Shown here: positions 38,401 through 57,501 of the stretch, in pieces | How the letters are laid out: every line of letters begins with the position of its first letter | Position numbering within the stretch: the stretch's first letter is position 1 | Assembly: GCF_029537735.1 (NCBI RefSeq) | Contig: NZ_JARPUQ010000002.1 | Coordinates: 74,608-138,607, forward strand | Direction: 5' to 3' | Origin: Robiginitalea aestuariiviva | Lineage (GTDB): Bacteria > Bacteroidota > Bacteroidia > Flavobacteriales > Flavobacteriaceae | Length of the DNA: 64,000 nt | Position numbers and translations under genes: made by a program | The notes under the pieces: model-generated | Told to the model about the DNA's origin: nothing | What the model saw: the letters and a program-made list of their open reading frames with translations, nothing else | Databases searched by the model: none

Positions 38401-38412
38401 TTCCGAAGTTCC

Positions 38413-39219: not shown

Positions 39220-40493
39220 TTCCCGTATTTCCCTTTCCAACGGGCTTTGAGAAAAGCCTTCAGTTGTTGTTCCCGGGTATTGTCCCCGCTTTCGTAAAAC
39301 GAGGTGCCGGACAGGGCCTCCGGGAGGAATTCCATTTCCACAAAATTGCCCGGGGCATCGTGGGCATACTGGTATTGCTGCCCATATCCCAGGTCCTTCA
39401 TGAGCTTGGTTGGGGCGTTGCGCAAGGGGAGGGGTACGGGTAAATCCCCGGTTTTTCGCACCGTGTCCTGGGCCTGTTTAATGGCGGCATAACTGCTGTT
39501 GCTCTTGGGGGAGGTGGCCAGATAGAGGGTACACTGGCTCAGGATGATCCGGGATTCCGGATAACCGATAGCCTGTACCGCCTGGAAGGTGGTGTTGGCC
39601 ATCACCAGGGCGGTTGGGTTGGCCAGGCCAATATCTTCGGAAGCCAAAATCAGCAGGCGGCGGGCGATGAACTTCACATCCTCGCCCCCTTCGATCATTC
39701 GGGCCAGCCAGTATACAGCGGCGTGGGGATCGCTGCCGCGGATCGATTTAATAAAGGCCGAAATGATATCGTAATGCTGTTCCCCGGTTTTGTCGTACCG
39801 GGCCGGACTTTGTTGTACCAGTTCCTGTACCCCCTTATCCGTAATCCGCACCGGGTCGGCAGCCGAGGCCCCAACCACCAGCTCGAAGATGTTCAGGAGT
39901 TTGCGGCCATCCCCCCCGGAGAGGCGCAACAGGGCAGTGGTTTCTTCCAGGCGGATATCCCGCTGGGAGAGCTGGGTATCGGTGGTCATGGCGCGCTCCA
40001 GCAAACGCAGGAGATCTTCTTTTCCGAAAGATTCCAGGGTGTAGACCTGGCAGCGCGACAAGAGGGCGGGAATCACCTCAAAACTGGGGTTTTCGGTGGT
40101 GGCGCCTATCAGGGTCACCCAGCCTTTTTCCACGGCCCCGAGCAGGGAGTCCTGCTGGCTTTTGCTGAAACGGTGGATTTCGTCTATAAACAGGATGGGG
40201 TTTTTGGCGGTGAACAGGCCCCCGCTTTGCTTGGCTTTATCAATCACCTCCCGGACCTCCTTTACCCCGCTGTTGATAGCGGAAAGCGTATAGAAGGGGC
40301 GGCCGCTTTCCTCGGCCAGGATCTGGGCCAGGGTGGTCTTGCCCGTACCCGGCGGCCCCCAGAGGATCATGGAAGAGATGGCCCCGCCTCGCAATTGCAG
40401 GGTAAGGGCGCCCTTGGGCCCTACCAGGTGGGGCTGGCTGATATAGTCCGAAAGCGTTTTGGGCCTAACCCGTTCTGCAAGGGGTTCATTCAT
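39216..40493 (-). CDS. rarA: replication-associated recombination protein A (RarA/MgsA)
   Basis: This AAA+ clamp-loader-like ATPase acts at stalled replication forks. The 425-aa protein has Walker [10 protein letters not shown] (46-54), Walker [17 protein letters not shown], sensor 1 GATTENPSF and sensor 2 [14 protein letters not shown]. The C-terminal tetramerisation region contains [20 protein letters not shown]. Length is typical. A TATTTTTA element (reverse complement at 40498-40505) lies 4 bases before the ATG. It is divergent from the rhomboid gene. Confidence 0.95.
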
Positions 40494-40497
40494 AAGG

Positions 40498-40505
40498 TAA
40501 AAATA
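40498..40505 (-). promoter_or_regulatory. rarA -7 element (TATTTTTA)
   Basis: The minus-strand TATTTTTA matches TAnnTTTG except for the last base and ends 4 bases before the rarA ATG, another close-to-start promoter. Confidence 0.4.
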
Positions 40506-40588
40506 CCATAAATCCGCAGAAGAACAGAGGGCATCTCCCCGGCAATAGCCCCCCGGTATTCCGCGTTAATTATACTAAATTGCCTTTC

Positions 40589-41329
40589 ATGAAATCCGGC
40601 CACGCCCCCTTTCGGTTTACCTATGCGGTCCTGCTGGTCCCCATGGCCTATATGTTGCTGATCTGGACGGTTTACCTGCTGGAGTTGCGGCTGGGGGTAA
40701 ACCTGAACCGCTGGGGCATCTATCCCAGGACCCTGGAAGGGCTGCGGGGCATCCTTACAGGCCCTTTTATTCACGGTTCTTTGGAACACCTGTACCAGAA
40801 TACCATCCCCCTGGTGGTACTTTCGGCCTCCCTCTTTTATTTCTACCGATCCATTGCCTGGAAGACGTTGCTATATGGGATGCTCCTTACCGGGGCCCTC
40901 ACCTGGATTATCGGTCGCCCGGCCTTCCATATTGGCGCCAGCGGGGTGATCTACCTGCTGGCCTCCTTTATCTTTTTCAAAGGCGTATTCTCCAGGCACT
41001 ACCGGCTGGTGGCCCTTTCCCTGGCCGTCGTTTTCCTGTATGGGAGCATGCTCTGGTATGTATTTCCGATTAAGGAGGGTATCTCGTGGGAAGGTCACCT
41101 TGGGGGCGCCATTACCGGGTTTCTGCTGGCGGCTGGGCTAAAGGCACCCCTGCCCAAACCCCCTAAGTACGCCTGGGAGCATCCGGATTACAAAGAGGAG
41201 GAAGACCCGTTTATGCGGCATTTTGACGCCGACGGAAATTTTATAGAACAACCGGAAGCAGAACCCGGGGAAACTTCAGGGGTGCAGATCCGGTATGAAT
41301 ACCGCGAAGGCCCCAAGGCGGATCAGTAA
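40589..41329 (+). CDS. rhomboid-family intramembrane serine protease
   Basis: The 246-aa protein has about six membrane segments and the rhomboid catalytic pair: Ser118 in HIGASGVIYLL and His170 in WEGHLGGAITGFLLA. The loop HGSLEHLYQNTIPL supplies the conserved His and Asn. A hydrophilic tail of about 60 residues follows (PKPPKYAWEHPDYKEEED). The substrate is unknown. An ATG start is used rather than the TTG three codons upstream. It overlaps the convergent rlmB by 7 bases. Confidence 0.9.
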   Translation: MKSGHAPFRFTYAVLLVPMAYMLLIWTVYLLELRLGVNLNRWGIYPRTLEGLRGILTGPFIHGSLEHLYQNTIPLVVLSASLFYFYRSIAWKTLLYGMLLTGALTWIIGRPAFHIGASGVIYLLASFIFFKGVFSRHYRLVALSLAVVFLYGSMLWYVFPIKEGISWEGHLGGAITGFLLAAGLKAPLPKPPKYAWEHPDYKEEEDPFMRHFDADGNFIEQPEAEPGETSGVQIRYEYREGPKADQ

Positions 41330-42060
41330 CCCCGCTGCCGGACCATTTCGTAGAGGATTACCCCGCAGGCTACCGAGACGTTCAGGGAAGCGATATCGCC
41401 CCGCATGGGCAGGCGCAATTGACCGTCTGTCAGTTTCAGCAAGGCCGGGGAGACCCCTTTGCCTTCAGACCCCATAATCAGGGCAAATCCCGAAGTAAAA
41501 TTCGCATCATAAACGGAATGCTCCGCTTTTTCCGAAGCGGCCCATAGAGGGATGCCCAGGGCCTGCAGGTAATATACTGCGTCCTTCAGGTGGGGGACTC
41601 GGGCAATAGGGAGGTGGAATACAGCCCCTGCGGAAGTTTTTACGGTATCTGCATTTACCGGGGCGCTGCCGCTGGCCGGCAGGATCAGGGCATCTACGCC
41701 GGTGCAGGCTGCCGTGCGGATAATGGCGCCCAGGTTGCGCACATCCGAGACCCCATCCAGCAAAAGGAAAACGGCGTCTTTTTTACTTTCGGTAACCCGG
41801 TCAATCAGCGCCTGGTAATCTTCGTAGCGGATGGGCGCTACCGCAGCAACTACGCCCTGGTGGTTTTCGGTGGGGAAACGGTTTAGCCGCTCTTTGGGTA
41901 CATACTGGATCTTCAGCTTATGGGTGCGGGCCTCGTGTTCCAATTCCCGAAATAAGGTGCCCTTAAGGCCGTGTTGCATATAGATGCGTTCCAGTCCTTT
42001 CCCCGCGCGAAGGGCTTCGAGTACGGCCCGGATGCCGTAAATGTATTCCGTGTCTTGCAT
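41323..42060 (-). CDS. rlmB: 23S rRNA (guanosine-2'-O-)-methyltransferase, TrmH/SpoU family
   Basis: This knotted (SPOUT) methyltransferase is predicted to methylate G2251 of 23S rRNA. The 245-aa protein has the N-terminal RNA-binding domain (IYGIRAVLEALRAGKGLERI), motif 1 DGVSDVRNLGAIIRTA, motif 2 IMGSEGKGVSPALL and motif 3 LRLPMRGDIASLNVSVACGV. This set favours RlmB, although other TrmH-family assignments cannot be excluded. The -7 element TACCTTTG lies 5 bases before the ATG. Confidence 0.9.
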   Translation of the reverse strand: MQDTEYIYGIRAVLEALRAGKGLERIYMQHGLKGTLFRELEHEARTHKLKIQYVPKERLNRFPTENHQGVVAAVAPIRYEDYQALIDRVTESKKDAVFLLLDGVSDVRNLGAIIRTAACTGVDALILPASGSAPVNADTVKTSAGAVFHLPIARVPHLKDAVYYLQALGIPLWAASEKAEHSVYDANFTSGFALIMGSEGKGVSPALLKLTDGQLRLPMRGDIASLNVSVACGVILYEMVRQRGY

Positions 42061-42065
42061 GGGGG

Positions 42066-42073
42066 CAAAGGTA
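42066..42073 (-). promoter_or_regulatory. rlmB -7 element (TACCTTTG), 5 bases from the ATG
   Basis: The minus-strand TACCTTTG is an exact TAnnTTTG match. It is separated from the rlmB ATG only by CCCCC, so the transcript is predicted to be leaderless. Confidence 0.5.
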
Positions 42074-42145
42074 CGCTAATTTCACCGCCGTTGGTTAGCG
42101 TACACGGGGGGATTTGAAGCGTAAATCAGGGCAAAAGCCGAAGCT

Positions 42146-43504
42146 TTAGAGGTTGGGAACCTCTATGCCCAGGGCTTCAATTTCCGGGGCATCCCTGTTG
42201 TGATGGTAGCCCCGCCAGAAGAAGCCGGTAGCGTTAAATTTCCATACCACTTCCTTGTCGCGGGTCACTTCCCAGTATCCGAAATCCCCTTCGGTAATCA
42301 GGATATTGCCATTGGGGAGGGGTACTGCCCCGGAAACCTTTCCGGAATACAGGTCAGGGTCTGTAAAACTCCAGAGCACCTGGGGCTCATTGTCTGCCCC
42401 TGCCTCCAGGGCGTATGTTGCCGGCAGCTCCAGTTCGTAAACCGTAGATTGATTAATGTCATTCCCGTTGGAGAAGATCAGTAATTTGCCCTGGTCCTCC
42501 CCGCGGAGTAAGTTCGGGTAATGGTTGTTGTGGAACAGGCGGGTTCCAGCCTGGTTTCTGTACGCTTCCGGATTACCAAAGCGGTAAATCAGGTCACCTC
42601 CTTTGCCATAGGCCCCGCCCGTAGAGCCGGCAGCTTCTGCCGTGGTGGTACTGTGGTCAATAACCCATACCTCGGAAAAGAAGTTGGCACTTATAAAAAT
42701 GGCGTCATTGACCGGGTCGTAGGCAATGGCGTTGGCATGCATGATATCCCCGTTGGGTTGCTCCCAGGTATCGGCCTCGGCCACATAGTTCAGGTCAATG
42801 CGCCCGGGATTTTCTGCAATACTTCCGTAATTGGCTTTTTCAGGATCGTGTTCCTGTATTAAGTGGTCCCAGGCGTGCCATTCCCAAACGATAGTATTGG
42901 TGTTCGGATCCACCTCAATAACCGCCTCGGGATAAACATCTATGTCTACTGAACTTCCTGCATCCAGGGCTTGCTGGGCCGTCCTTTTTTCCCAAACCAG
43001 GGCAATAATATTGCCGTTGGGCAGTAATTCGATGTCGTGGTGGGTTTCGGCATCCGGAGAGGAGTACAGGAAGTCCCATTCCACCGTGCCATCGGGGGCT
43101 ACAAATTGCAAGCGGCCACCTTTTCCGCCAAAACGAATCTGGGGGTCATCGGACTCCAGTGAGGCCAGAAGCCGACCGTCGGGCAAAAGCACTACATCGT
43201 TGCCGATGTTGTTGGTCAGTTCCCACTCATAAAGAAGCCTGGCTTCCTTGTCCATCAGGTAGACCCGGTTGGCCCCTGCATCATTGACCAGGATAAGATT
43301 GTTGTCTACCCTGGCCGAATTCAGCATTTCCACAGTGCCCACAGGCGTGAAGTCCTGAGGGTTTTCCCCATCGGGGTCGTTCGGATTGGAAGGGTCCGGG
43401 TCCTGTTGGACTACTTCGGGCTCTTCCAGGGTATTGTCAGAACACGCGGTGGCCCATCCCCCCAGGAAGCAGAGCACCACAAAAGCTCTTATTGTGTTTT
43501 TCAT
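42146..43504 (-). CDS. arylsulfotransferase-like (ASST/quinoprotein-fold) lipoprotein
   Basis: The 452-aa predicted surface or periplasmic lipoprotein has lipobox GWATAC (Cys21), then a Pro/Asp/Asn linker (DPDPSNPNDPDGENPQ). A repeated propeller-like pattern follows: VLLPDGRLLASL, ETHHDIELLPNGNIIALVWE, DIMHANAIAYD, LFHNNHYPNLL and PLPNGNILITEGDFGYWEVT. This matches the bacterial arylsulfotransferase-type beta-propeller, whose characterised members move sulfate between phenols. A role as an enzyme here is unproven. It is the last gene of the run downstream of SusC/SusD. Confidence 0.8.
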   Translation of the reverse strand: MKNTIRAFVVLCFLGGWATACSDNTLEEPEVVQQDPDPSNPNDPDGENPQDFTPVGTVEMLNSARVDNNLILVNDAGANRVYLMDKEARLLYEWELTNNIGNDVVLLPDGRLLASLESDDPQIRFGGKGGRLQFVAPDGTVEWDFLYSSPDAETHHDIELLPNGNIIALVWEKRTAQQALDAGSSVDIDVYPEAVIEVDPNTNTIVWEWHAWDHLIQEHDPEKANYGSIAENPGRIDLNYVAEADTWEQPNGDIMHANAIAYDPVNDAIFISANFFSEVWVIDHSTTTAEAAGSTGGAYGKGGDLIYRFGNPEAYRNQAGTRLFHNNHYPNLLRGEDQGKLLIFSNGNDINQSTVYELELPATYALEAGADNEPQVLWSFTDPDLYSGKVSGAVPLPNGNILITEGDFGYWEVTRDKEVVWKFNATGFFWRGYHHNRDAPEIEALGIEVPNL

Positions 43505-43556
43505 AGCAGTACATAAAGGGAAGTGGTTTTGTTCCGGAATATTTCCGGTACGAGCC

Positions 43557-44300
43557 TTACTGGTTCAGAAACTGGATAATGCGAACCAGGTCTGCCTGAT
43601 CCTTAACATCCAGATTGTTTTCTTTGAGATAGGCTTTGATGGCATCCTTGCGGGCCGGGTCCAGGCGGTATATAGCGCCTTTTCGCTGGTCCAGTTCGTC
43701 AATGCGGTTTACGCCGGCTTTCTGCACGTAGTATTCTTCAAACTGCGCAAAGCGGCTGGGCGTAGCTTTAACAAAGGAGTTTGCAGCCGGGGCGCCTTCC
43801 GTGAATTTTACCCGGATCCGTTTGTAGAGCGTAAAGTTAGGCCCTTCCGCCAGCACACTCAGGTAGCCGTTCAGGGTATTGTTGTTGCGGTCGATAAAGG
43901 TTTTGAAACTCATCGGGTTCCCGTCTACCAGGATGGCGATATTTTTATCCCGGCCCAGGGCGCGAATGCCTTCTTCCAGCAGGGATTGTTTGATTTCAAT
44001 CTCTTCGTTCAGGGCATTGTAGCGGTAGAAAACGGTACCCATATCTTCCTCTTTGTACAGGAGCTGGGTAGGTTTAAAGGTATTACTGGTATAGGGAGAG
44101 CCCTGGAATTCCTCCAGGTTAAAAGAGCGTTTGGCATTCGCATCGGTTACCGGCCCGAGCAGGGTTGAGATCGCTCCGGCCGTAGCCCCCTGTGCGGCGC
44201 CACCGGAAGACATATTGGTGGCAATCTGCCCGGTAAATTGCGCCATGGCGCTACCTGTAATACATACGAAAGCGGTAAGAGTCAAGTGTTTCAAGTTCAT
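43557..44300 (-). CDS. exported protein of unknown function
   Basis: No family was recognised. The 247-aa product has a signal peptide ending near GSAMAQ (about 21). It continues with a Gly/Ala/Ser-rich segment (NMSSGGAAQGATAGAI) and a mixed domain: SFNLEEFQGSPYTSNTFKP, GTVFYRYNALNEEIEI and LDPARKDAIKAYLKENNLDV. It lies between the FG-GAP and ASST-like genes with gaps of 29 and 52 bases, so co-transcription is likely. Confidence 0.7.
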   Translation of the reverse strand: MNLKHLTLTAFVCITGSAMAQFTGQIATNMSSGGAAQGATAGAISTLLGPVTDANAKRSFNLEEFQGSPYTSNTFKPTQLLYKEEDMGTVFYRYNALNEEIEIKQSLLEEGIRALGRDKNIAILVDGNPMSFKTFIDRNNNTLNGYLSVLAEGPNFTLYKRIRVKFTEGAPAANSFVKATPSRFAQFEEYYVQKAGVNRIDELDQRKGAIYRLDPARKDAIKAYLKENNLDVKDQADLVRIIQFLNQ

Positions 44301-44329
44301 GTGTACAATTTTTCCTAAAAATACAATAA

Positions 44330-47300
44330 TTAATGTTTTACGAGCTTTTGCTCCTTTTTATTTGGTTGAAATTTCCATAATTCCGGTCGATTGTTGTTGC
44401 GACCGCTCAGTAAATAGGTGTTCCCACCGGATCGAATGGTTTTCAGGGACTTAACATTGCCCTGCAGGTACAGCCCGGACTGGTTTTGGGGGATGGGGCG
44501 GTAGGTACCGTCCCCCTGGCTTTCCAGCACCCATCCGGAAAGGGCATCCAGCCTTGGGGTTTCTACTTCGGTTTCATAAATATTCCCGGCCAGGATCAGG
44601 TCTTCCAGGCCATCCCCGTTCAGGTCTGCCGGCACCACGGCCATAAGCGGAATAAACTGGGCCTCGACAGGGAGGGCAGCCGTCTGGAATTTTCCGCCCC
44701 CCTGGTTTAGGAGGAGGAGGGAGGCAAAGCCGGTGGCTTCCCGTTCGTAACTCTCCTCCAGGGCACTGCCGTATACGTCTTCCAGGCTGGCACTTGCAAA
44801 GGAACTGTAGCTGGGGAATTTTTCGGCAATAAAGGGCATTTGCTGGGAAGAGCATTCCCGGCCCCTGACGGGCACATATTCTCCGTGGTATTTCTTACTT
44901 AAAACGATGTCCAGGGTGCCGTTCTGGTCAAAGTCCGTGGCGAAGACCTTAAAGGGTTTGTCCGGGCTGGCGCTGAATTTCATATTCAGCCCCACATTCC
45001 CCAGAACGTAATCCGGCAGGCCGTCTGCATTGGCATCGGTTTCGGTTACGGAAAACCACCACCCCCGGTCGGCAACCCCCATTTGGCTGGGGTCCATTTG
45101 TTCGAATCCATTGTCGGTATTCCGGAAAAAGCCCACGGGGGTCCATTCCCCGGCGGCGATCAGATCCATGCGGCCGTCCCCGTCAAAATCGGTGGGCAAT
45201 AGGGTATTTATAATACCGAAGTCCCTAAGGGCCGGGGCTTGGGAATCGGTTACGTCGGTCAGGATGCCCTCCCGGTTTTCCAGCAATAGGGAAGGGGCAT
45301 GCCGGGGATAATTCCGGGCCAGGATGCGGTTGCCTACCACCAGGTCGGGGTCCCCGTCGGTATCAAAGTCGATTACGGCCACGGTCTTACCGCTGTCCGT
45401 GCCCAGCTGGTGTGCCTCCCGGGTGTCGCGGGTAAAACGGCCCTGCCCATCATTTAGGTAGATCCGGTCGCGATACAGGGAAGATTCGGTGGCAAAGGCA
45501 TTACCACCACTGACCACATACAGGTCCAGGTCTCCGTCCGAATCCAGGTCAAAAAAGGCGGCCTCCATATCCTCGTAAGTGCGGTCGTCCTCAAAGGCGC
45601 TGGCATCTCCCTTGCGGTACCCGGTGGCGGTTTTCAGGAGCAGGGTGCCCGGTTGCCCGGAGGCTCCTCCGTAGTAGAGGTCTTCCATGCCATCCCCGTT
45701 TACATCCCCGGAGGCGATATACGGGCCAAAGTTAGATTGTTTATAGGGCAGGAGGATTTCAGTGGCAAAATCGTCGTAGGGGTTTTCCGTGTGGGCGAGG
45801 TCAATGCCCAAGCCCGCCGGGTCTTCCTGTGTAAACATAGGTGAGGGAGCAGGGGAGGAGGGAGCCGTTTGCGCTTCCGCAGCCCGGAGTTCCAGGGTTT
45901 GGTTCGCAGCAACATCCTTTAAGAGGGTCACCCGCCCGTCCGGCCAGTCGGCCCGCAGGCTGTCCACACGGGTATCCGGGCCCAGGCCAAAGAGGGCGAT
46001 GGGTTCCTGGGCAGAACGGTACCCGCGTACCCGGCGCAGTTCTACCAACTGTACTTTCCCATTGTGGTAAGCTGTTACTTTGGGAAAGGTCTCTGAATGC
46101 GGCCCTTTAGCGGCAACCTTCAGGTAGTTGCCACGCCCTTGTTCCCGACTCTGGTTGCGATACACCAGGGCGGTTTCGTCCATATTGTTTACGATCAGGT
46201 CCGGGTCTCCGTCGTTGTCCAGGTCGCCCAGGGCGGCCCCGTTGCTGAAGGTCAGGTCTCCCAGGCCCCAGCTGGCCCCGTTTTCGGGGAAGGCAAAATT
46301 TCCCCGGTTCTCAAAGAGCAGGTTGGGGAGTTTCTCGGAAGGCATGCTGTTGTAGAGTTCCTGCTTTACGGACAGGGGTACGTTATCCCCGTATTGCTGG
46401 CGGGCCGCATATACCCGTTGTTGCAAATCGTTGTCCAGGGCATAGCGGCGATAACCGTTGGTGATATAGATGTCCTTATCCGCATCCAGGTCGTAGTCCG
46501 CCATGAGTACGGACCAGCTCCAGTCCGTACTGGCGGTGCCGGTAAGCTGGGCAATGTTGCTGTAGTGGTTGTTCCCCTGGTTCAGTTGCAAGGAATTGTA
46601 CATATACTGGTACTGGAACCCGGACTGGTTCACCAGGAAATCGAACCGCTGCGTATTCATGGAGGCCATAAGGGTCTTGGAGCGGTAATGGTCGCTGGAG
46701 GCCATATCCAGTACAAAGATGTCCTGCAGGGCATCGTTGTTTATGTCCGCCAAGTCGATTCCCATCCCGTAATAGGAAATTTGCTGGGTGTAGTCCTTGA
46801 TGTGGTCTTTAAAGGTGCCATCACCCTGGTTGATAAAGAGGGCATCGGGCAGGTAGTAATCGCTGGCAATGTAAATATCGTCCAGGCCGTCCGAATTCAT
46901 ATCCGCCACCAGCAGACCAAGCCCGAAGATGGGTCTTTGGATCCCGGCCTCCCGGCTTACCTCCGTAAAGCCGTCCCCATCGTTCCGATACAGGTGGGAA
47001 CTGTTAAAGTAAGGCGCTTCCGGGTTGCGTTTCAGCAATTCCTGCAATTGCACGGGGTCTACCCCGTAGTACTCGTTTTCGTTCATCACTATGGCATCCA
47101 GGTCGCCGTCCCGGTCGTAATCAAAAAAGGCCGTTTGGGTGCTTATGCCCATATCCGCCAGACCATAGGCTTCGGCCACTTCGGTGAAGGTGCCATCCTG
47201 CTGGTTCAGAAAAAGCAGGTTCTTGCGCCGTAGCCGCGGGTTGGGTCCGCCCTGGGAGACATAGATGTCCAGCCACCCGTCTCCGTTCAGGTCTGCGAAG

Positions 47301-47707
47301 GTTACCCCATTGGACCATTGTTTACCCTGATTGATGCCGGCAGTTTCCGAAACGTCTTCGAAGGTGAGGTTACCCTTATTAAAATACAGGCGATTGGGCA
47401 CCTGGTTCCCGCAGAAAAAAACGTCCAGCAAACCGTCATTGTTCAGGTCTGCCACACCCACCCCGGCACCATTATAGAAATAGTCGTAATTAAAAAGGTT
47501 TTCCAGGGTTCCTACATTCTCCTGGATGCGGTTTTCGAAGGTAATACCACTGCTTTCCGGGGCTACTTGTGTAAATACCGGCTCAGTATTAAGTGTTTCC
47601 GCTGTGGACTCGACACGTGAGGTATCCTGCTCGGAACATCCCAGGGATGCCAATAAAAAACATAAACTCCAAAAGAAGCTAATTCGTTTCAGGGCGCTTT
47701 TCGCCAT
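44330..47707 (-). CDS. giant FG-GAP/VCBS and ASPIC-UnbV repeat lipoprotein
   Basis: The 1125-aa predicted surface lipoprotein has lipobox LLASLGC (about Cys24). The body is a tandem beta-propeller array with at least 14 Asp/Asn/Gly calcium-type motifs, such as DLNNDGLLD, DYDRDGDLD, DINNDALQD and DLNGDGLED. In the middle, near residue 540-630, lies an ASPIC/UnbV domain (GNYLKVAAKGPHSE, LRADWPDGRVTLLKDV). Repeats resume after it. It has no enzymatic motif and resembles CRTAC1-type adhesion or binding proteins. An ATG at 47731 would add 8 residues. It follows a terminator, so it may have its own promoter. Confidence 0.85.
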   Translation of the reverse strand: MAKSALKRISFFWSLCFLLASLGCSEQDTSRVESTAETLNTEPVFTQVAPESSGITFENRIQENVGTLENLFNYDYFYNGAGVGVADLNNDGLLDVFFCGNQVPNRLYFNKGNLTFEDVSETAGINQGKQWSNGVTFADLNGDGWLDIYVSQGGPNPRLRRKNLLFLNQQDGTFTEVAEAYGLADMGISTQTAFFDYDRDGDLDAIVMNENEYYGVDPVQLQELLKRNPEAPYFNSSHLYRNDGDGFTEVSREAGIQRPIFGLGLLVADMNSDGLDDIYIASDYYLPDALFINQGDGTFKDHIKDYTQQISYYGMGIDLADINNDALQDIFVLDMASSDHYRSKTLMASMNTQRFDFLVNQSGFQYQYMYNSLQLNQGNNHYSNIAQLTGTASTDWSWSVLMADYDLDADKDIYITNGYRRYALDNDLQQRVYAARQQYGDNVPLSVKQELYNSMPSEKLPNLLFENRGNFAFPENGASWGLGDLTFSNGAALGDLDNDGDPDLIVNNMDETALVYRNQSREQGRGNYLKVAAKGPHSETFPKVTAYHNGKVQLVELRRVRGYRSAQEPIALFGLGPDTRVDSLRADWPDGRVTLLKDVAANQTLELRAAEAQTAPSSPAPSPMFTQEDPAGLGIDLAHTENPYDDFATEILLPYKQSNFGPYIASGDVNGDGMEDLYYGGASGQPGTLLLKTATGYRKGDASAFEDDRTYEDMEAAFFDLDSDGDLDLYVVSGGNAFATESSLYRDRIYLNDGQGRFTRDTREAHQLGTDSGKTVAVIDFDTDGDPDLVVGNRILARNYPRHAPSLLLENREGILTDVTDSQAPALRDFGIINTLLPTDFDGDGRMDLIAAGEWTPVGFFRNTDNGFEQMDPSQMGVADRGWWFSVTETDANADGLPDYVLGNVGLNMKFSASPDKPFKVFATDFDQNGTLDIVLSKKYHGEYVPVRGRECSSQQMPFIAEKFPSYSSFASASLEDVYGSALEESYEREATGFASLLLLNQGGGKFQTAALPVEAQFIPLMAVVPADLNGDGLEDLILAGNIYETEVETPRLDALSGWVLESQGDGTYRPIPQNQSGLYLQGNVKSLKTIRSGGNTYLLSGRNNNRPELWKFQPNKKEQKLVKH

Positions 47708-47808
47708 GGACGGATATGGTGATGACTGCATGTTATGCTGGGGGTTGCTTTGGGGCTCCTAATTTAAGCATAATGGCGGTATCGGGCACGGGCCAAAGCG
47801 TTAAAAAC

Positions 47809-47838
47809 AAAAAGCCACCTCTTGGGGAGGTGGCTTTT
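47809..47838 (-). terminator. rho-independent terminator after the SusCD-lipoprotein operon
   Basis: The perfect stem AGCCACCTC / GAGGTGGCT (47813-47821 with 47827-47835) has a five-base loop and an A-rich left flank that reads as a T-run on the minus strand. It lies 34 bases past the lipoprotein stop and separates it from the FG-GAP gene. Confidence 0.9.
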
Positions 47839-47868
47839 CTTTTATTCCGGGTTATCCCGGGTTGGAAA

Positions 47869-48813
47869 TTAATCCTTACAGAAATCGATGGTGATAGGGC
47901 CGGCAGAAACTCCGGTGTATCCACCTACTACATTTCCATTGGGAGTAATGATCTCAAATCCGATTTCACCGTAGAAATCTCCGGGGAAATACCAGTCGGC
48001 AGTCTGGGTGCCTACAGGAATAGTAATCGTTCCTGTTCCGCTGAAACCGTCGTTGGCGGTACAATCGGCGCTACCCAGGAAGGTGCCGGCAGCGCTTCCG
48101 TAAGGAGAGCACATACCTACTTCCAGTACGGTGCCGTCGTCCAGTGTAACGGTAATACCATCCCCTCCACCACCAGTGGTGGTCTGCCAACCATCTCCAT
48201 AGGAGTCGGTCATGTTGATAGTCCAAACGCCGGGTGTCGGAGCTTTGGGCGGACATACCACAGTGGCAGTGTACAGGAAGGGTGAACGGAAGAAGGAACC
48301 GGTCAGGGTTCCGGAGTTGTCATCGTTAGAGAAACGACGGCCGTCGGTCATTACCAGTTCGAAACGAATGGTAAACTGGTCGGAGCCATCTACATCTGCG
48401 TTGGAAATCGGCAGGGCTGCTACCAGTTCCGGCAGGGTGATCTCATAGGTAGTACGCGGCAACCCGAATTCACCAATGGTAAAGGTAGAGGCATCCAGGG
48501 TGGCAGCCAGTACTTCTCCGGTGTCCAGATCGGGTTCTCCGTCGGCAACGGTGTTGTCGCGGAAACCTACGAATACGTCAATGGCGGATACGAGGGCGCC
48601 GTTTTCCTGATCCTGTACCTCGAGAGTTACCCCGAAGTAGGATGAGTCATTCCCAATCGGAATTTCGTCGGAAAGTACGCTGATGGTACGCAGGATGGCG
48701 CCACGCTGTTCCTGAGAAATGATATCATCAAACACCGTTTCTCCGTCTTCACAGCCTGTCTGCAAAAAGAGCAGGCCTGAAAACAATCCTATTAAAAATT
48801 TATACTTCTTCAT
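47869..48813 (-). CDS. SusCD-linked lipoprotein with DSYGDGW domain
   Basis: The 314-aa predicted outer-membrane lipoprotein has lipobox FLQTGC (Cys21). Residues about 40-190 form a beta-rich domain (RTISVLSDEIPIGN, GVTLEVQDQENGA). From about 192 a second domain contains INMTDSYGDGWQTTTGGGGDG, ITVTLDDG, and cysteines at CSPYG, DC and FCKD that may pair. The DSYGDGW signature recurs in Bacteroidota surface proteins. It is the third gene after susC and susD, 17 bases after susD, and is probably a surface ligand-binding component. Confidence 0.78.
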   Translation of the reverse strand: MKKYKFLIGLFSGLLFLQTGCEDGETVFDDIISQEQRGAILRTISVLSDEIPIGNDSSYFGVTLEVQDQENGALVSAIDVFVGFRDNTVADGEPDLDTGEVLAATLDASTFTIGEFGLPRTTYEITLPELVAALPISNADVDGSDQFTIRFELVMTDGRRFSNDDNSGTLTGSFFRSPFLYTATVVCPPKAPTPGVWTINMTDSYGDGWQTTTGGGGDGITVTLDDGTVLEVGMCSPYGSAAGTFLGSADCTANDGFSGTGTITIPVGTQTADWYFPGDFYGEIGFEIITPNGNVVGGYTGVSAGPITIDFCKD

Positions 48814-48830
48814 TGATGTCTTTATTTTAA

Positions 48831-50636
48831 TTAGTTAGCAACAGGGAACGTCGGGCTGGCAGGGTTGGTATCCCAGAATACCTGCTCGGTCAGCGTTGCC
48901 TTTTGCGAGAGATTCGGATTGGTGATTACTTCGTTCTGCGGCAGCAGGAAGGTCCGCGGGAACGGCCCCGGGTTCGGTTCCCAGTTGGGTACCAGGGTGG
49001 TCGGATATCCGCTCAAACGGTAGAAGGTCCATGCTTCAGTAGATCCACCATACATGGTGGTGAAATACTGCTCGGCCAGGATATTCCATTTGGCAGTGTT
49101 ATCGCCGGCGTTGAAAGCTGCCTGTAAACCTGCAATGAAGTCATCTACGTCGGTGCTGGTCGGTACCAGGTCTCCGGCCACTTCCGGGTCGGTAACTACT
49201 CCAGTAGCGGAATCGAAGGTGCTAGAATCCAACAGGGCTCCAGCATTAAAGTTGGGATCCACAAAGGATTGCACTTTCTCGATGGACTTCCGAAGGCCTG
49301 CCTCCATAAAGGTAGCGGCATCTCCGGTGTTACCCGCATTCATGGCCATATAGGCGCGCCAGAAATCAACATAGGAGGAAAGGAAAATCGGCTCAATACC
49401 TGCGCCGCCGGCTCCCTGGCCAAGGCCTACGCCATCGTCGTTCTGATTGTATTCAAAATCGAAGGTCCCATCGGTTTGCTCCTGGATGGTACCGTTGCGG
49501 AACAGATCTGCATCGAATTTCCCACCTGCAGGGTATACACCAACTGCGGTACGCAGAAAGTTGTCGGGAGGGGTCCCTTCATCGTTTCCGTGGGTACGAC
49601 CCCAGTAACCTTCCGGTACGGCACAATAGGTGTAACCACCATCCTGGAAGTGCTGCGGGGGAACCACCAGGGAACACGCCAGCGTTTCTTCGTTAGGATC
49701 GGCATCCGCACCGGGCGTTTCGCCTACCTGACGGTAGAAGTAGTAACGAATCCGGGGATCGTTGTTGTTCAGCATGGTTTCCATCATCCAGTTGGACTGG
49801 TAGATATTCGCCCCGGAAGGGGTGTAATCTGCAGCGTAATCCGGGTGGCGGTCATCCGGCTGCAATTCGCTGGTACCGTAGGTGATCTGGAAATCATCTT
49901 CGATATCGGAAATGTAGTTACCGCCGGAAATCACGGAATTGAATGCGGAAACGTTCCCGGTAGTGTAGTACACTTTCAAGCGGATGGTGTTGATTAACTT
50001 CACCCACTTGTCGGTGTCACCGTTATAGAAGATGTCTGCTGCACCCTGAGCACTGGGACCGGCAGCAAGCAAAGCCTCTGCTTCGTTTAACAGACCCATG
50101 GCGCTGTTATATACATCTTGTCCGTTGTCCAAAAGAGGGGCAGGGAAGTCGGTCGGGTTTCCGGCCTGGCTAAAGGCTGCCGCACCGAGGAAGTCTACCA
50201 ATTGGATCAGGGAGTGGGCGTAAAGGGTTTTGGCTACACCCAGGTGGAAGGCGAAGCCAACTTCAGAGTTGGCATCAATGGCTTCCAGCGCCTGAAGGTT
50301 GGTCAGGATACCTACACTTACCCCATCCCCAACGCCGTTACCTCCACTGGAGTAAACGCGGGACCATACCCCGTTCAGGGTAGATCCGGGATAGTTGTTA
50401 AAGTAGTCCCGTCCGCCCATGTAGTCGATGCGCACCAGTTCGCCGGAGCGGTCGCTCAGCACCTGTTGGTTGGTTCCATAGGCCAGCTGAATGGACGTTA
50501 AAAGCAGATTGGGATCTGCCTGGTCGGGAGAGAGGTCGTTCGGACTTACGCGCAAGTCCAGCTCCGTCGTTTCGCAGGAATTAAGAAAGCCCCCTACGAG
50601 AACGAAAATCGCAATATATTTTAATACTCTTTTCAT
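48831..50636 (-). CDS. SusD/RagB-family outer-membrane lipoprotein
   Basis: This lid-type substrate-binding lipoprotein works with the SusC-type transporter. The 601-aa product has lipobox GGFLNSC (Cys19) followed by ELDLRVSPNDLSPDQADPNLLL, and the family-typical helices (LGVAKTLYAHSLIQLVDFLGA, IFYNGDTDKWVKLINTIRLK). The C-terminus has YFTTMYGGSTEAWTFYRLSGYP. This fits the SusD-like_2 branch. The substrate cannot be inferred. The frame is open to an ATG at 50657, but the ATG at 50636 gives the better lipoprotein signal. It is 27 bases after susC. Confidence 0.9.
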   Translation of the reverse strand: MKRVLKYIAIFVLVGGFLNSCETTELDLRVSPNDLSPDQADPNLLLTSIQLAYGTNQQVLSDRSGELVRIDYMGGRDYFNNYPGSTLNGVWSRVYSSGGNGVGDGVSVGILTNLQALEAIDANSEVGFAFHLGVAKTLYAHSLIQLVDFLGAAAFSQAGNPTDFPAPLLDNGQDVYNSAMGLLNEAEALLAAGPSAQGAADIFYNGDTDKWVKLINTIRLKVYYTTGNVSAFNSVISGGNYISDIEDDFQITYGTSELQPDDRHPDYAADYTPSGANIYQSNWMMETMLNNNDPRIRYYFYRQVGETPGADADPNEETLACSLVVPPQHFQDGGYTYCAVPEGYWGRTHGNDEGTPPDNFLRTAVGVYPAGGKFDADLFRNGTIQEQTDGTFDFEYNQNDDGVGLGQGAGGAGIEPIFLSSYVDFWRAYMAMNAGNTGDAATFMEAGLRKSIEKVQSFVDPNFNAGALLDSSTFDSATGVVTDPEVAGDLVPTSTDVDDFIAGLQAAFNAGDNTAKWNILAEQYFTTMYGGSTEAWTFYRLSGYPTTLVPNWEPNPGPFPRTFLLPQNEVITNPNLSQKATLTEQVFWDTNPASPTFPVAN

Positions 50637-50663
50637 AATTACTGTAGTCATTAACAATTTTTA

Positions 50664-53600
50664 TTAGAAGGAAGCTTTGATGCTGACACCATAGCGGCGG
50701 GAGCTCGGACCGTTGATAAAGTCAAAGCCACGTCCGTTACCGATACCAACCCCCTGTACGTTCGGGTCAAAGTTCGCTCCATCGGGCATGTTATAGGCAT
50801 CATACCAGAGGTTGAAGCCCTGTGCTGTGATGGACAGTGATCCGAGCGGGGTTTTATCCAGCCACTTCTTCGGGAAGGTGTACCCGAGGGATACCTCCTG
50901 CAGACGGACTACGGAAGCATCGTAGATACGGGCTTCGGTAGGACCGAACAGCAGGTTCGAGAAGAAATAGGTAGAGTTGTTCAGCTGAATGGTATTCACT
51001 TCACCGGTGCTTTGACGCACACCCGGCAGGATGTAAGTGTTCTCACGATCCTGGGTCTCTACGATCAAGCCCCGTCCTAAAAGTACACCTACAGTACTGG
51101 AGAGCATGTCTCCACCTTTCACGTGGCTGAATTGCCAGTTCAGGTTCCAGTTCTTATAACGAATGGTGTTGATGAAGTTCATGGTGTAATCCGGAATCGC
51201 GTCCCCGATGATCGGCACGTTGCCGTCTGCATCTTGTTCTACCACAACGTAGTTACCTGCATCGTTAATGAGATAGTTGCCGTCAGCATCGCGTCCAATC
51301 GCGGTACCTACAATGGTACCCAGGGATTCCCCTTCGATGGCGGCGTTAGACCCGCGGAACAATCCACCTCCTACAGCCAGGGAACCGGCGTAAGCGATGA
51401 AGTCCTGGTCTTGCTGGGTTACGGTCTCGTTGTTGGTGAAGAAGTTCACCCGGGAGTTCCAGGAGAAGTCATCTCCCCGGAAGAGGTCGATACCCAGGTC
51501 GGCTTCAAAACCTTCGTTCTGAATTTCCCCGATGTTGGACTGCGTAAAGCTAAATCCGGTAGAGGGAGACAGGGGCTCGGTTACGATCAGGTCGTTGGTG
51601 ATCCGCTGGAAGTAGGTTGCATCGAGGCTGATGCGGCTCTGCCACAGACGGGTCTCAACACCCACTTCATACTCTTCGAGCAGCTCAGGCTTCAGATCCG
51701 GGTTGGCGCGGAAGTTGTCCACCTGGTTGGTGGTCAGTACGCCGGCGCCGAAAGGATCAGTGTAACGAAGGGTGTTTTGTTCCACTACGTTAACCGTGGG
51801 GTATCCGGTCGGGAAGGTGGCAGAAGTACCGTAGCTGGCACGCAGCTTCAGGAAGTTCAGCCCATTCTCGGTGCTCAGGCCGCTGAAGGCGGCGGTGGGC
51901 AGGAAGGATACGCTAACCCCGGGGTAGGTCTTGCTGTTGTTAGCTGTAGCAAGGTTGGATACCCAGTCGGTACGGGCGGAGAGGTTTACGAACAGGTAGT
52001 TGTCGTAATCCAGGGTCGCCTGCCCGAGGATCCCCACAATGTTGCGTTTGCGGGAGAATTGGATCGGGGTTTGGTTTTCGTAGTTGAAGTGGCGTTTTAC
52101 GCCAAATACGATCTGGCCGGTGCTGGCTACCCCGCTTCTGTCATAGAAATCCTGACGGGAGGTGGCACCTACGGTAAAGGTCATGCCGAGTTTCTCGGAC
52201 AGGTCGTAGTTACCGTTCAGGGAAACAAAGTGTTCCCAGATGGTGTTGTTGTTGTCATAGGTGTTCAGGAACCCGAATACCGCCTGGGTGAATTCTACCC
52301 CGCCCTTGTTGGAACCGTTGATGTTCCGCTCGTTGTAGAAGTCCAGACCGGAACGCCATCCCAGGGACAGGTTCTCGCTGAGCTCGTAGTTCAACTGGGC
52401 ATTCCAGTAGAAACGGTTGGTCAGCTGACGGTAGGTTACGTTTTTAGCTGTCCAGCGCGGGTTGATGATGTCGTTACCGTTACGGTAGTAAACGGAAGAA
52501 CCATCGATCGGGTTTTCGAAAGGCAGCCCCATGAGGTCTACAGAACGCGGCGTAAAGAGCACGTTTCCGAAAACGGACAGACCGTCTGTACCGTTACCCC
52601 GGGAAGAGGCGATCGGAGGGGTGCGGTAATCCGTCCGCGCATAGTTCATGGTGGCGCTTACTGTGATTTTGTTGGTCAGCTGGCTACGACCCCCAACGGA
52701 GAAGTTTACCCGGTTCAGGGAGTTCCCAGGGGTAAAGCCTTCATCGTTCAGGTAACCCAGGTTGGCGTTAAAGTTGGTGCTGCCGTCCTGTGTTCCACCG
52801 GCTATGTTGATGTTGGTGTTGGTCACATAACCCGGCTTGAAGAACTCCTCAACGGAGTTGTAGGGCTGCCAGGGGTAACGGGCCCCTTGCAGTTCCGGGA
52901 ATGCAGCCCGGGTGGAGGCAACAGCGGTAGTGGAGTACGGGTGCTCCAGGGTACCGTTGTCGTCAATGGCGGACTGGTTGCCCCATCCGGATACGCCGTC
53001 GCGCTCAAAGCTGGGACCCCAGTTGGAGAAGAACCATCCAAACGCCTGGTCAAAACCGTTACCATATTTATCCTGGTAATCCGGGATGGAAGCCATTTCG
53101 TTGGTAAAGAAAGACTGGGCGATGGTAACTTCGGTCTTCTTGGCGCCCCCGGTGGCGGCACCAGCCTTGGTGGTGATCAGGATCACCCCGTTTTTACCCT
53201 GAGTACCATACAGGGTAGCGGCGGCCAGACCTTTCAGTACTTCTACGCTGGCGATGTTGTTCGGGTCCAGGTCCAGGAAACGGGAAGAACCGGTGTTACC
53301 ACCGATAAAGTTGCCCTGGGAGTTGGTATCGTTACTAAACGGAACCCCGTCCACGATGAACAGTGCCTGGTTGCTACCGCTAAAGGAGCTCAGACCCCGT
53401 ACAGTAACGTTGGTACCAGAACCGGACATACCACCCGCAGAGGTGATTTGCACCCCGGAGGCCTTACCGGTAAGTACCCGGGCTACGTCACCTTCGGCGC
53501 GCTGCTCGAGTTCGTCGGCACCTACGGAGGATACGGCGTACCCCAGTGCTTTCTTTTCACGCTTAATACCCTGGGCAGTTACTACAACTTCTTCCAGAGC

Positions 53601-53900
53601 CTGGGCGTCTTCCTGCATTTGGACATTTACAGTGTTACTGGCACCTACAGTCCGGCGCTCGGCACTCATCCCCAGGTAGGTGTAAACCAGGACCTGTCCA
53701 GGGCTTGCCTGCAGGGAGTAATTTCCGTCGAAATCGGACTGGGTACCGGTAGCGGTGCCCTCAACAACGATATTCACGCCAGGAAGGGGCAGACCATCTG
53801 CGTCCGTAACTGTACCTGAAATCGTCTTTTCTTGTGCAAAGGAAATCTGCACAACAAACGCCAGTAATAGCGTCAAGATTCCATTTAATTTCGTTCTCAT
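50664..53900 (-). CDS. SusC/RagA-family TonB-linked outer-membrane transporter
   Basis: The 1078-aa TonB-dependent receptor has a signal peptide ending at SFAQ (about 22) and a carboxypeptidase-regulatory-like domain (ISGTVTDADGLPLPGVNIVV to about residue 95). A TonB-box-like linker (EEVVVTAQG) and the plug follow (VTVRGLSSFSGSNQALFIVD, ASVEVLKGLAAATLYGTQGK). A 22-strand barrel ends in RRYGVSIKASF. It pairs with the next gene, SusD. The ligand is unknown, and no glycosidase, lyase or sulfatase is nearby. A -7 element (TAAGTTTG) lies 55 bases upstream. Confidence 0.94.
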   Translation of the reverse strand: MRTKLNGILTLLLAFVVQISFAQEKTISGTVTDADGLPLPGVNIVVEGTATGTQSDFDGNYSLQASPGQVLVYTYLGMSAERRTVGASNTVNVQMQEDAQALEEVVVTAQGIKREKKALGYAVSSVGADELEQRAEGDVARVLTGKASGVQITSAGGMSGSGTNVTVRGLSSFSGSNQALFIVDGVPFSNDTNSQGNFIGGNTGSSRFLDLDPNNIASVEVLKGLAAATLYGTQGKNGVILITTKAGAATGGAKKTEVTIAQSFFTNEMASIPDYQDKYGNGFDQAFGWFFSNWGPSFERDGVSGWGNQSAIDDNGTLEHPYSTTAVASTRAAFPELQGARYPWQPYNSVEEFFKPGYVTNTNINIAGGTQDGSTNFNANLGYLNDEGFTPGNSLNRVNFSVGGRSQLTNKITVSATMNYARTDYRTPPIASSRGNGTDGLSVFGNVLFTPRSVDLMGLPFENPIDGSSVYYRNGNDIINPRWTAKNVTYRQLTNRFYWNAQLNYELSENLSLGWRSGLDFYNERNINGSNKGGVEFTQAVFGFLNTYDNNNTIWEHFVSLNGNYDLSEKLGMTFTVGATSRQDFYDRSGVASTGQIVFGVKRHFNYENQTPIQFSRKRNIVGILGQATLDYDNYLFVNLSARTDWVSNLATANNSKTYPGVSVSFLPTAAFSGLSTENGLNFLKLRASYGTSATFPTGYPTVNVVEQNTLRYTDPFGAGVLTTNQVDNFRANPDLKPELLEEYEVGVETRLWQSRISLDATYFQRITNDLIVTEPLSPSTGFSFTQSNIGEIQNEGFEADLGIDLFRGDDFSWNSRVNFFTNNETVTQQDQDFIAYAGSLAVGGGLFRGSNAAIEGESLGTIVGTAIGRDADGNYLINDAGNYVVVEQDADGNVPIIGDAIPDYTMNFINTIRYKNWNLNWQFSHVKGGDMLSSTVGVLLGRGLIVETQDRENTYILPGVRQSTGEVNTIQLNNSTYFFSNLLFGPTEARIYDASVVRLQEVSLGYTFPKKWLDKTPLGSLSITAQGFNLWYDAYNMPDGANFDPNVQGVGIGNGRGFDFINGPSSRRYGVSIKASF

Positions 53901-53955
53901 TTTTTAATTATTTGAATTAGCTACCTGCGAAAATCTTAATTTACTGTTAATAATC

Positions 53956-53963
53956 CAAACTTA
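53956..53963 (-). promoter_or_regulatory. susC operon -7 element (TAAGTTTG)
   Basis: The minus-strand TAAGTTTG is an exact TAnnTTTG match in an AT-rich stretch 55 bases before the susC ATG. A clear -33 TTTG is absent, which would suit an activated promoter. The leader before the ATG is A-rich, as is common in Bacteroidota. Confidence 0.55.
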
Positions 53964-54430
53964 TTTTTATAAAACTTTAACGGCATCCCCTGTAATGACG
54001 GGTCCTGATTTTAAAGGGGGTATGATTAAAGGATGCGCATTTCAGGCGGGGGTTGCTTGGGAATCTCGCAAAAGTCAGGACGGTGGCCCGGGCGGGGGCA
54101 GGGAGGTTGTGCTAGGGTTATTTTTCAAAATTTCTCCAGGATTATAGCCGGTAGGCGGTAGGGGCTTGAACCCCAAATTTCACAACGCCGGCCCGAGGTT
54201 TGATGCGGGGATGTCAGCGGGTCGGGTGCAGGGTTCAGGTTTCTGCTTTGCTAGATAATTTCAGGGTATATATATTAAGGTATAAGTGGGTTTTTGATAA
54301 ACGTCGGGAACGCTTTTTCCGGACTGGCCCAACGCGAGCTGCCGGGGGCTTCACGGCGGGGTGGCAGCGCCCCCGCCAGGGAACCGTTACACCGCCTGGC
54401 AAGTTTTGCTATAAAATAACGCCCGGGGGA

Positions 54431-54461
54431 TTTGAATTAAAGGGAATAATTGCTACATTTG
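54431..54461 (+). promoter_or_regulatory. str operon promoter (TTTG-N19-TACATTTG)
   Basis: TTTG at 54431-54434 and TACATTTG at 54454-54461 are separated by 19 bases, the textbook Bacteroidota promoter layout and the best match in the window. The predicted start is near 54467, leaving a leader of about 35 bases before rpsL. Confidence 0.8.
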
Positions 54462-54501
54462 CCAGCCCTTAAATGAGGGTAGACTGAATTTTAAGAATTA
54501 T

Positions 54502-54876
54502 ATGCCAACAATTTCACAATTAGTACGAAAAGGAAGGGCCACAATTACCAAGAAGAGTAAATCGGCTGCTTTGGATTCGTGCCCCCAACGCCGGGGCGTG
54601 TGTACGCGGGTATATACCACCACCCCGAAGAAACCGAATTCCGCCATGCGGAAGGTCGCTCGGGTTCGTCTTACCAATGGTAAGGAGGTGAACGCGTACA
54701 TCCCGGGAGAGGGTCACAACCTCCAGGAGCACTCGATAGTATTGGTTAGAGGCGGACGGGTGAAGGATTTGCCAGGAGTTAGATACCACATTGTGCGCGG
54801 TGCACTGGATACGGCCGGAGTGGCCGGACGCACCCAGCGCAGGTCTAAGTACGGTGCCAAACGCCCCAAAAAGTAA
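54502..54876 (+). CDS. rpsL: 30S ribosomal protein S12
   Basis: The 124-aa decoding-centre protein opens [12 protein letters not shown]. It contains the streptomycin-site segments [19 protein letters not shown] and [18 protein letters not shown], with the usual lysines present, so no resistance change is visible. It is the first gene of the str operon, 13 bases before rpsG. Confidence 0.98.
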
Positions 54877-54889
54877 TTAGACGTAAGCA

Positions 54890-55366
54890 ATGAGAAAAAG
54901 ACAGGCTAAAAAAAGGCCGTTGCTGCCGGACCCCCGGTATAACGATCAGTTGGTAACGCGCTTTGTGAACATGATGATGTGGGACGGTAAAAAGTCCCTG
55001 GCATTCAAGATCTTCTACGACGCCATGGATATCGTGGAGCAGAAGAAGACCGACGAGGAAAAATCCGCCGTTGAAATCTGGAAAGATGCCCTTTCCAATA
55101 TTATGCCTCACGTAGAGGTGCGCAGCCGCCGTGTAGGGGGTGCCACCTTCCAGATCCCCATGCAGATCCGTCCGGATCGCAAGATCTCCACAGCTATGAA
55201 ATGGCTGATCAGCTACTCCCGCAAGCGGAACGAAAAATCCATGGCCCAGAAGCTGGCCGGCGAGGTGCTGGCAGCTGCCAAGGAGGAAGGTGCCGCTGTG
55301 AAAAAACGCGTGGATACCCATAAGATGGCTGAGGCGAACCGAGCATTTTCTCACTACAGATTCTAA
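54890..55366 (+). CDS. rpsG: 30S ribosomal protein S7
   Basis: The 158-aa protein organises the 16S rRNA 3' domain. It opens [20 protein letters not shown], with family motifs [20 protein letters not shown] and RSKRKNE-like [10 protein letters not shown], and ends [11 protein letters not shown]. It is the second gene of the str operon, 5 bases before fusA. Confidence 0.98.
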
Positions 55367-55371
55367 GCGAA

Positions 55372-57501
<2,130 letters not shown>

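Follow-up and report, generated by a model that had tools for sequence, protein, structure and literature searches.

The gene cluster and its chromosomal slot

The DNA considered here is a window of 64,000 nucleotides (nt) from Robiginitalea aestuariiviva (contig NZ_JARPUQ010000002.1, positions 74,608-138,607 of the forward strand), on which coordinates without a locus handle are based. Between 42146 and 53900 it carries six open reading frames on the minus strand, and all six products are exported. Three of them form a core: a SusC/RagA-type TonB-dependent transporter of 1078 amino acids (aa; 50664-53900), a SusD-like lid lipoprotein (48831-50657) whose gene lies 6 bp downstream of SusC, and a DSYGDGW lipoprotein in the SusE position (47869-48813). 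An intrinsic terminator with a 13-bp stem and a T run (47809-47839, minus strand) marks the boundary to a tail that consists of a giant FG-GAP/ASPIC (UnbV) lipoprotein (44330-47731), an exported 247-aa protein without known family, here named H247 (43557-44300), and a 452-aa lipoprotein of the ASST-like propeller family (42146-43504). On the left the cluster is bordered by a SpoU-type rRNA methylase (41323-42060, minus strand; labelled rlmB), followed by a rhomboid and a rarA-like ATPase, and on the right by rpsL-rpsG-fusA (54502-57501, plus strand), divergent from SusC. An earlier note on this DNA had described six minus-strand genes for exported proteins at this place; all are present, and the TonB, SusD, FG-GAP/ASPIC and Arylsulfotrans assignments were confirmed by Pfam.

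The transporter scores 557 bits against TIGR04056 (NCBIfam; cut-off 368 bits) and carries the CarbopepD_reg_2 N-terminal extension (PF13715), the plug (PF07715) and the barrel (PF00593) according to Pfam. The lid protein matches SusD-like_2 (PF12771) with 107.6 bits; judged by eye, its start is probably a few codons downstream of the TTG that opens the listed reading frame, and it has a lipobox ending in LNSC, while that of the DSYGDGW protein ends in QTGC. The two features of a SusCD importer, a SusC/RagA barrel and an adjacent SusD lid lipoprotein, are thus both found. No Pfam or NCBIfam family was matched by the DSYGDGW protein or by H247. The absence of degradative enzymes, also claimed earlier, holds for the six genes as well as for five neighbours (36946-42060), among which no glycosidase, lyase, esterase or sulfatase was found (other parts of the window were not scanned for these); the linked degradative enzymes of a polysaccharide-utilisation locus are therefore lacking in this set. 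A single M3 peptidase is encoded at 23902-25932.

For comparison, three sets of loci were collected. The first consists of 20 stretches around H247 or ASST matches in 80 related genomes and around paralogues in the own genome, and the second of 100 stretches (L068-L167) selected by SusC similarity from 249 genomes of the family, taken among the matches listed, not all of them. The third contains 80 loci, mostly of Flavobacterium, retrieved with the S7 protein of PDB 7jil. Because L048-L060 were chosen through H247 or ASST matches, tail rates by SusC identity are given for L068-L167 alone, and the terminator and co-divergence counts include every collected locus, also the tail-selected ones. 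Slot layouts were read from the automatic annotation of the fetched stretches.

In 84 of the 100 SusC-selected loci, rpsL lies on the upstream side of the best SusC or the methylase on its downstream side, and two of the 16 loci outside this slot (L096, L099) are second copies that were picked deliberately. The SusC-SusD pair occupies the same place in the same orientation across many genera. In a SusC tree the window protein falls in a clade of 101 tips (support 1.0), 97 of which are followed by SusD and a DSYGDGW-type gene. SusC, SusD and the lipoprotein in the SusE position are a recurrent gene trio in a fixed slot beside the ribosomal-protein operon. The slot SusCs of Flavobacterium lie mostly outside the window clade and are accompanied by a shorter SusD, and some genomes have both SusC kinds in tandem. 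Among the 79 Flavobacterium-set loci with rpsL, SusC adjoins rpsL in 59 and does not in 20; the annotation shows a tail family left of rpsL in none of these 79 loci, only 53 of which reach the methylase within the 10-kb flank.

Recurrence and divergence of the tail genes

The earlier note had reasoned that the last three genes should co-occur with this SusCD in relatives, as they would otherwise be neighbours by chance. Co-occurrence was indeed found: at least one tail family is present in 17 of the 21 nearest fetched slots, i.e. SusCDE slots of the SusC-selected sample with a SusC at least 60% identical (FG-GAP in 14, H247 in 10, ASST in 12, all three in 8), and one of the four tail-less slots (L072) is cut by a contig end. 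At 50-60% SusC identity tail genes occur in 8 of 20 slots, and below 50% in 8 of 31. When all loci are taken, including the window and 10 tail-selected ones, at least one tail family follows the SusE-position gene in one orientation in 44 of 84 SusCDE slots, as compared to 1 of 44 slot positions and 2 of 11 positions outside the slot for the 55 SusCs without a following SusD and DSYGDGW-type gene. Since the order of the tail genes varies, with either ASST or FG-GAP first, the set appears to be modular.

The terminator (read from 47839 to 47809) has 13 pairs before its T run, a longer stem than any other of the 21 terminator-like sites on the list for 41000-55000; 17.3 such sites are expected by chance, and it is this stem that stands out. 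Of 44 core-tail junctions, 34 have a hairpin of at least 10 pairs with a T run; such a hairpin was also found at 4 of 42 junctions between tail genes and at 37 of 62 that precede the methylase, whereas shuffles of two-base blocks gave on average 0.0-0.1 hairpin junctions, and at most one per round. The division of the set into three and three genes by a terminator, as proposed earlier, is thus both present and conserved. The hairpin sequences vary between loci, so that its position rather than its sequence is kept. Codon adaptation to ribosomal genes declines from SusC (0.734), SusD (0.689) and the DSYGDGW protein (0.685) to H247 (0.675), FG-GAP (0.669) and ASST (0.635). The sequence TAAGTTTG (53956-53963, minus strand), 63 nt before the SusC start codon, is a candidate Bacteroidota -7 element; no -33 TTG was found at the right spacing from it, and the motif upstream of SusC is weak as a class (22 of 98 SusCDE loci versus 13.0 in shuffles). 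In the core-tail gap of the window the -7 motif was not found, and in core-tail gaps elsewhere it is modestly enriched (10 of 37 versus 3.3 in shuffles).

Co-divergence was examined for slot loci by partial correlation of pairwise protein distances with those of SusC, with fusA as background; related loci are not independent, and the permutation p values should be taken as a guide. The partial r with SusC is 0.90 for SusD and 0.68 for the DSYGDGW protein (56 loci each), and 0.80 for H247 (22 loci, p 0.0005; 0.77 in 16 single-copy loci). For FG-GAP it is 0.28 (16 loci, p about 0.01), for ASST 0.23 (19 loci, p 0.07), the lowest among the tail families, and for the flanking methylase -0.10 (45 loci). 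A looser choice of loci gave 0.90 for SusD, 0.70 for DSYGDGW, 0.81 for H247, 0.27 for FG-GAP, 0.29 for ASST and -0.05 for the methylase. As its divergence tracks that of SusC far better than the methylase does, H247 behaves like a partner of SusC, and FG-GAP and ASST do not clearly do so.

H247 has no lipobox, and its signal, which by eye ends in AMA before QF, has the appearance of a signal peptidase I substrate; the protein is therefore exported but not a lipoprotein. Its model is confident (predicted local distance difference test, pLDDT, 86). A fold search with this model yielded nothing useful (best Z 4.0, root mean square deviation 6.5, 67 aligned residues), with the restriction that folds missed by Foldseek cannot appear, and the best profile match among PDB sequences is a 45-residue stretch of 3sy3 (E 0.0014). 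No convincing remote similarity to H247 was found among the unlabelled tail genes of other lineages. Distant relatives of H247 (L064:9555-10244 and L065:7544-9208) lie close to a gene whose product has a TsaD/TsaB-type domain (PF00814), away from SusCD, so that the family has a second setting.

The giant carries ten FG-GAP_3 stretches and UnbV_ASPIC, with Pfam scores over the cut-off that place it in the FG-GAP/ASPIC family (FG-GAP_3 249, FG-GAP 94, UnbV_ASPIC 57 bits). Its lipobox cysteine (Cys32, found by script) is invariant in 20 aligned sequences. What the earlier note had said about the tail stands as far as the presence of FG-GAP and ASST-like lipoproteins and of an unknown exported protein is concerned; the length of 1125 aa that it gave for the giant is the one from the second ATG, the first ATG giving 1133 aa. 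Its description as calcium-rich agrees with 12 DxDxDG-like motifs of the calcium-binding kind, of which 19 aligned relatives have 9-13. Of 40 related genomes, 23 have ASPIC proteins. In the own genome five UnbV_ASPIC proteins were found, and all of them sit at SusCD pairs: one in the window, three at locus L061 and one at L062, where the SusC and SusD genes were confirmed by Pfam. The L061 locus (C1:1280001-1300000) has a second SusCD pair, behind which three consecutive FG-GAP/ASPIC giants and then a PAP2-domain protein are encoded. Of the nine other genomes searched in the genus, eight (G001-G007, G009) also have ASPIC triplets with a spacing of about 3.3 kb.

The core complex, the ASST-like protein and known systems

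The closest solved relative of the window SusC is BT_2264 (303 bits; runner-up 163), the transporter of the SusCD system BT2261-2264 of Bacteroides thetaiotaomicron (PDB 5fq6-5fq8), for which we know of no tail cassette. The same relative is found for the slot SusC of locus L259 (280 bits; runner-up 124). The genome of L259 is one of three with an S7 protein identical to the chain in PDB 7jil, the ribosome of Flavobacterium johnsoniae, and we infer, on strong grounds, that it is that of strain UW101. Its slot contains, in this order, rpsL, a TamA-like gene (566 aa), SusC (1083 aa), SusD (488 aa), a lipoprotein (272 aa) and the methylase. This order matches Fjoh_0402-0405. Fjoh_0402 is a TamA homologue (PMC12045153), and Fjoh_0403-0405 encode a purified SusCDE complex, the most abundant SUS complex of F. 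johnsoniae, with its function called unknown (PMC12611786). The core can thus hardly be called undescribed, as it had been in the earlier note, since its slot is that of this purified complex, although SusC there belongs to another clade. The two systems share the slot, the order of SusC, SusD and lipoprotein, and BT_2264 as closest solved SusC relative; in F. johnsoniae no FG-GAP, H247 or ASST gene precedes the methylase. The idea that the slot SusCD might be part of the canopy on the surface side of the Bacteroidota BAM complex, formed by BamG and BamH, was rejected, since PMC12611786 gives Fjoh_1412 and Fjoh_0823 as these proteins and regards Fjoh_0403-0405 as a separate SUS complex.

Oligopeptides are present in the structures of both Bt2261-64 and RagAB (PMC7782687). 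Because the closest solved relative belongs to such a peptide-holding complex, peptides are the leading guess for the ligand, and the core is probably a peptide-importing SusCDE complex. RagAB of Porphyromonas gingivalis is likewise a SusCD-type peptide importer (PMC11817032), but is less similar to the window SusC (108 bits) and is a two-gene system. Regarding the DSYGDGW lipoprotein, only one weak Pfam match was obtained among 84 members of its family, and the best profile match among PDB sequences has an E of 1.4. An AlphaFold2 model (pLDDT 86) has an Ig/FnIII/MG-like N-terminal half; this half resembles complement MG, FnIII and GH3 Ig-like domains at Z of about 8-9, the best PDB match (Z about 9) covering residues 37-189. 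This resemblance may reflect a common arrangement only, with the C-terminal half barely covered.

The ASST-like protein scores 69.9 bits against Arylsulfotrans (Pfam) and has its lipobox cysteine at position 21 (by script). The active site of Escherichia coli AssT comprises His252, His356, Asn358, Arg374, Thr501 and the sulfated His436 (PMC13426309). A profile of 29 relatives aligns weakly with this enzyme (PDB 3elq) at 353-375 (E 9e-4), by which His256, Asn258 and Asn274 of the window protein correspond to His356, Asn358 and Arg374. The equivalents of His356 and Asn358 are invariant, as is a histidine at the likely place of His436 (His328 in the window protein, assigned via a QH or PH motif in long forms; the direct HMMER alignment is one residue off). 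The place of Arg374 is taken by asparagine in all 27 short forms, and arginine is kept in both aligned long forms. Thus, the window protein shares the family and two active-site residues with AssT, but as a 452-aa lipoprotein with Asn at the Arg374 place it does not have the complete active-site set (the His252 and Thr501 places were not aligned directly), and canonical sulfuryl transfer by the short form is doubtful. Longer ASST forms (about 550 aa) are found at this slot in other genomes (L084, L067, L098, L101 and L126); the one that was checked (L067) keeps the Arg374 equivalent and ends in a sorting domain of the type IX secretion system (T9SS), without a lipid anchor.

Possible function of the locus

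We lean, with moderate confidence, towards the explanation that the locus is a local form of a widespread flavobacterial SusCDE importer, probably for peptides, with a less expressed accessory cassette. The core would be made at a high level and work as a 'pedal bin': SusD would capture short oligomers, most likely oligopeptides, the lid would close, and TonB would pull the plug of SusC. The ligand may be cut beforehand by secreted proteases encoded elsewhere, and a depolymerase would then not be linked because the ligand arrives already cut. The terminator would hold the tail at a lower level. The giant, for which the earlier note had proposed a putative scaffold role, and the propeller could serve as surface subunits for capture or docking, the propeller having lost canonical sulfuryl transfer, and H247 would be a true SusC partner, probably on the periplasmic side in view of its cleavable signal and the lack of a lipid anchor. 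Recurrence behind a conserved terminator, with one member co-diverging with the importer, makes the tail proteins look like accessory parts rather than chance neighbours.

Several observations weigh against this explanation. The sequence class of a SusC does not prove its ligand, so that peptides would be a guess by relative. The window clade of 101 tips (support 1.0) does not include the slot SusCs of L259 and CI04, and no sequence similarity was detected between the L259 SusE and the DSYGDGW lipoprotein; the window and F. johnsoniae complexes are therefore positional counterparts and probably not orthologues. The slot is empty of SusCD in 17 of the 20 Flavobacterium-set loci where SusC does not adjoin rpsL, as the methylase was reached there without a SusC. 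None of the three tail genes is present on the same strand in 39 of the 72 SusC-selected SusCDE slots, one of which is the contig-cut L072. With the looser choice of loci, FG-GAP distances track fusA (r 0.71) better than SusC (r 0.61), for which reason the tie of FG-GAP to SusC may be shared ancestry. The slope in codon adaptation is small, with rarA scoring 0.679, and the genes after the terminator could form a separate transcription unit.

A more far-reaching version can be envisaged, which we put forward tentatively and consider rather improbable as a whole. A dominant outer-membrane importer slot of the Flavobacteriaceae would, in one lineage, give rise to an enzyme-free surface 'utilisome'. 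In it, SusCDE would be joined by two surface receptors, the giant as a calcium propeller and a sulfotransferase propeller that is dead as an enzyme, and by H247 as a new, co-evolved periplasmic subunit of SusC; a conserved but leaky terminator would determine how much core is made relative to the accessory proteins.

It is unlikely, but would fit the loose relation between SusC class and ligand, that the importer takes up something other than peptides, such as a glycan oligomer, a nucleic acid or a cofactor, without local enzymes. The F. johnsoniae complex was given no function by the paper that purified it, and transport of peptides and of nucleic acids has been proposed for SusCD-like proteins (PMC8319329); the peptide-holding complex of the closest solved relative argues against other ligands.

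Lower still is the probability that the slot simply tolerates insertions next to highly expressed ribosomal genes, the three tail genes being unrelated passengers. The frequency of tail-less slots, the poor co-divergence of ASST and the closeness of FG-GAP to fusA fit this possibility, as do the contents of the slot in other lineages, where a second SusCD pair, an approximately 250-aa lipoprotein or secreted proteins of 303-327 aa are found; some slots have no SusCD. However, passengers would not be expected to appear as the same three families in one orientation in 44 of 84 SusCDE slots and at only 1 of 44 slot SusCs without SusD and a DSYGDGW-type gene, nor would H247 be expected to track SusC so much better than the flanking methylase. 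The least probable proposal, and in our opinion a very unlikely one, is that of the earlier note that SusCD imports a phenolic or aryl-sulfate compound which the ASST-like protein modifies: the Arylsulfotrans score, the invariant His356, Asn358 and likely His436 positions and the T9SS-tailed, Arg-keeping long form in the slot of another genus (L067) fit it, but Asn replaces Arg374 in 27 of 27 short forms, the profile match to the solved AssT is weak, and 9 of the 21 nearest fetched slots lack ASST, which is also the tail family least tied to SusC.

For the importer with an accessory cassette, the slot conservation, the peptide-holding relative and the co-divergence of H247 lead to specific tests, which is of importance since the most abundant SUS complex of a model flavobacterium is without known function (PMC12611786). 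The five ASPIC proteins at SusCD pairs in the own genome suggest that SusCD and FG-GAP/ASPIC giants are recurrent partners. In literature searches that left subscription papers and preprints outside, no paper was found that joins SusD to ASPIC/UnbV or combines SusC, SusD, FG-GAP and lipoprotein in flavobacteria, nor was there, among the matches listed, an arylsulfotransferase paper with SusD or TonB-dependent transport; Fjoh_0403-0405 are mentioned in two papers. So far as this literature goes, it is new that the slot is widely kept, that a modular tail recurs behind a conserved terminator and that H247 co-diverges with SusC.

Some further genes recur at the slot. A TamA-like gene of about 565 aa, corresponding to Fjoh_0402, lies between rpsL and the slot SusC in 38 of the 100 SusC-selected loci and also in L067 (14093-15781), and is absent in the window. 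In L108 (8434-9369) and L109 (10739-11695) the tail is replaced by secreted proteins of 303-327 aa, for which a T9SS type A sorting domain was confirmed in both loci, and similar genes are present in L111, L112 and L113, beside a shorter SusE of about 195 aa. One lineage repeatedly has the lipoprotein of about 250 aa in its slot (L081:10993-11751, L085:6650-7414, L082 and L084); it is unrelated to H247, and no NCBIfam family was found in the two members scanned. Beyond rarA, the window encodes a DUF5723 protein and an unassigned 268-aa exported protein (36946-39219), and proteins like the latter recur beside rarA in relatives.

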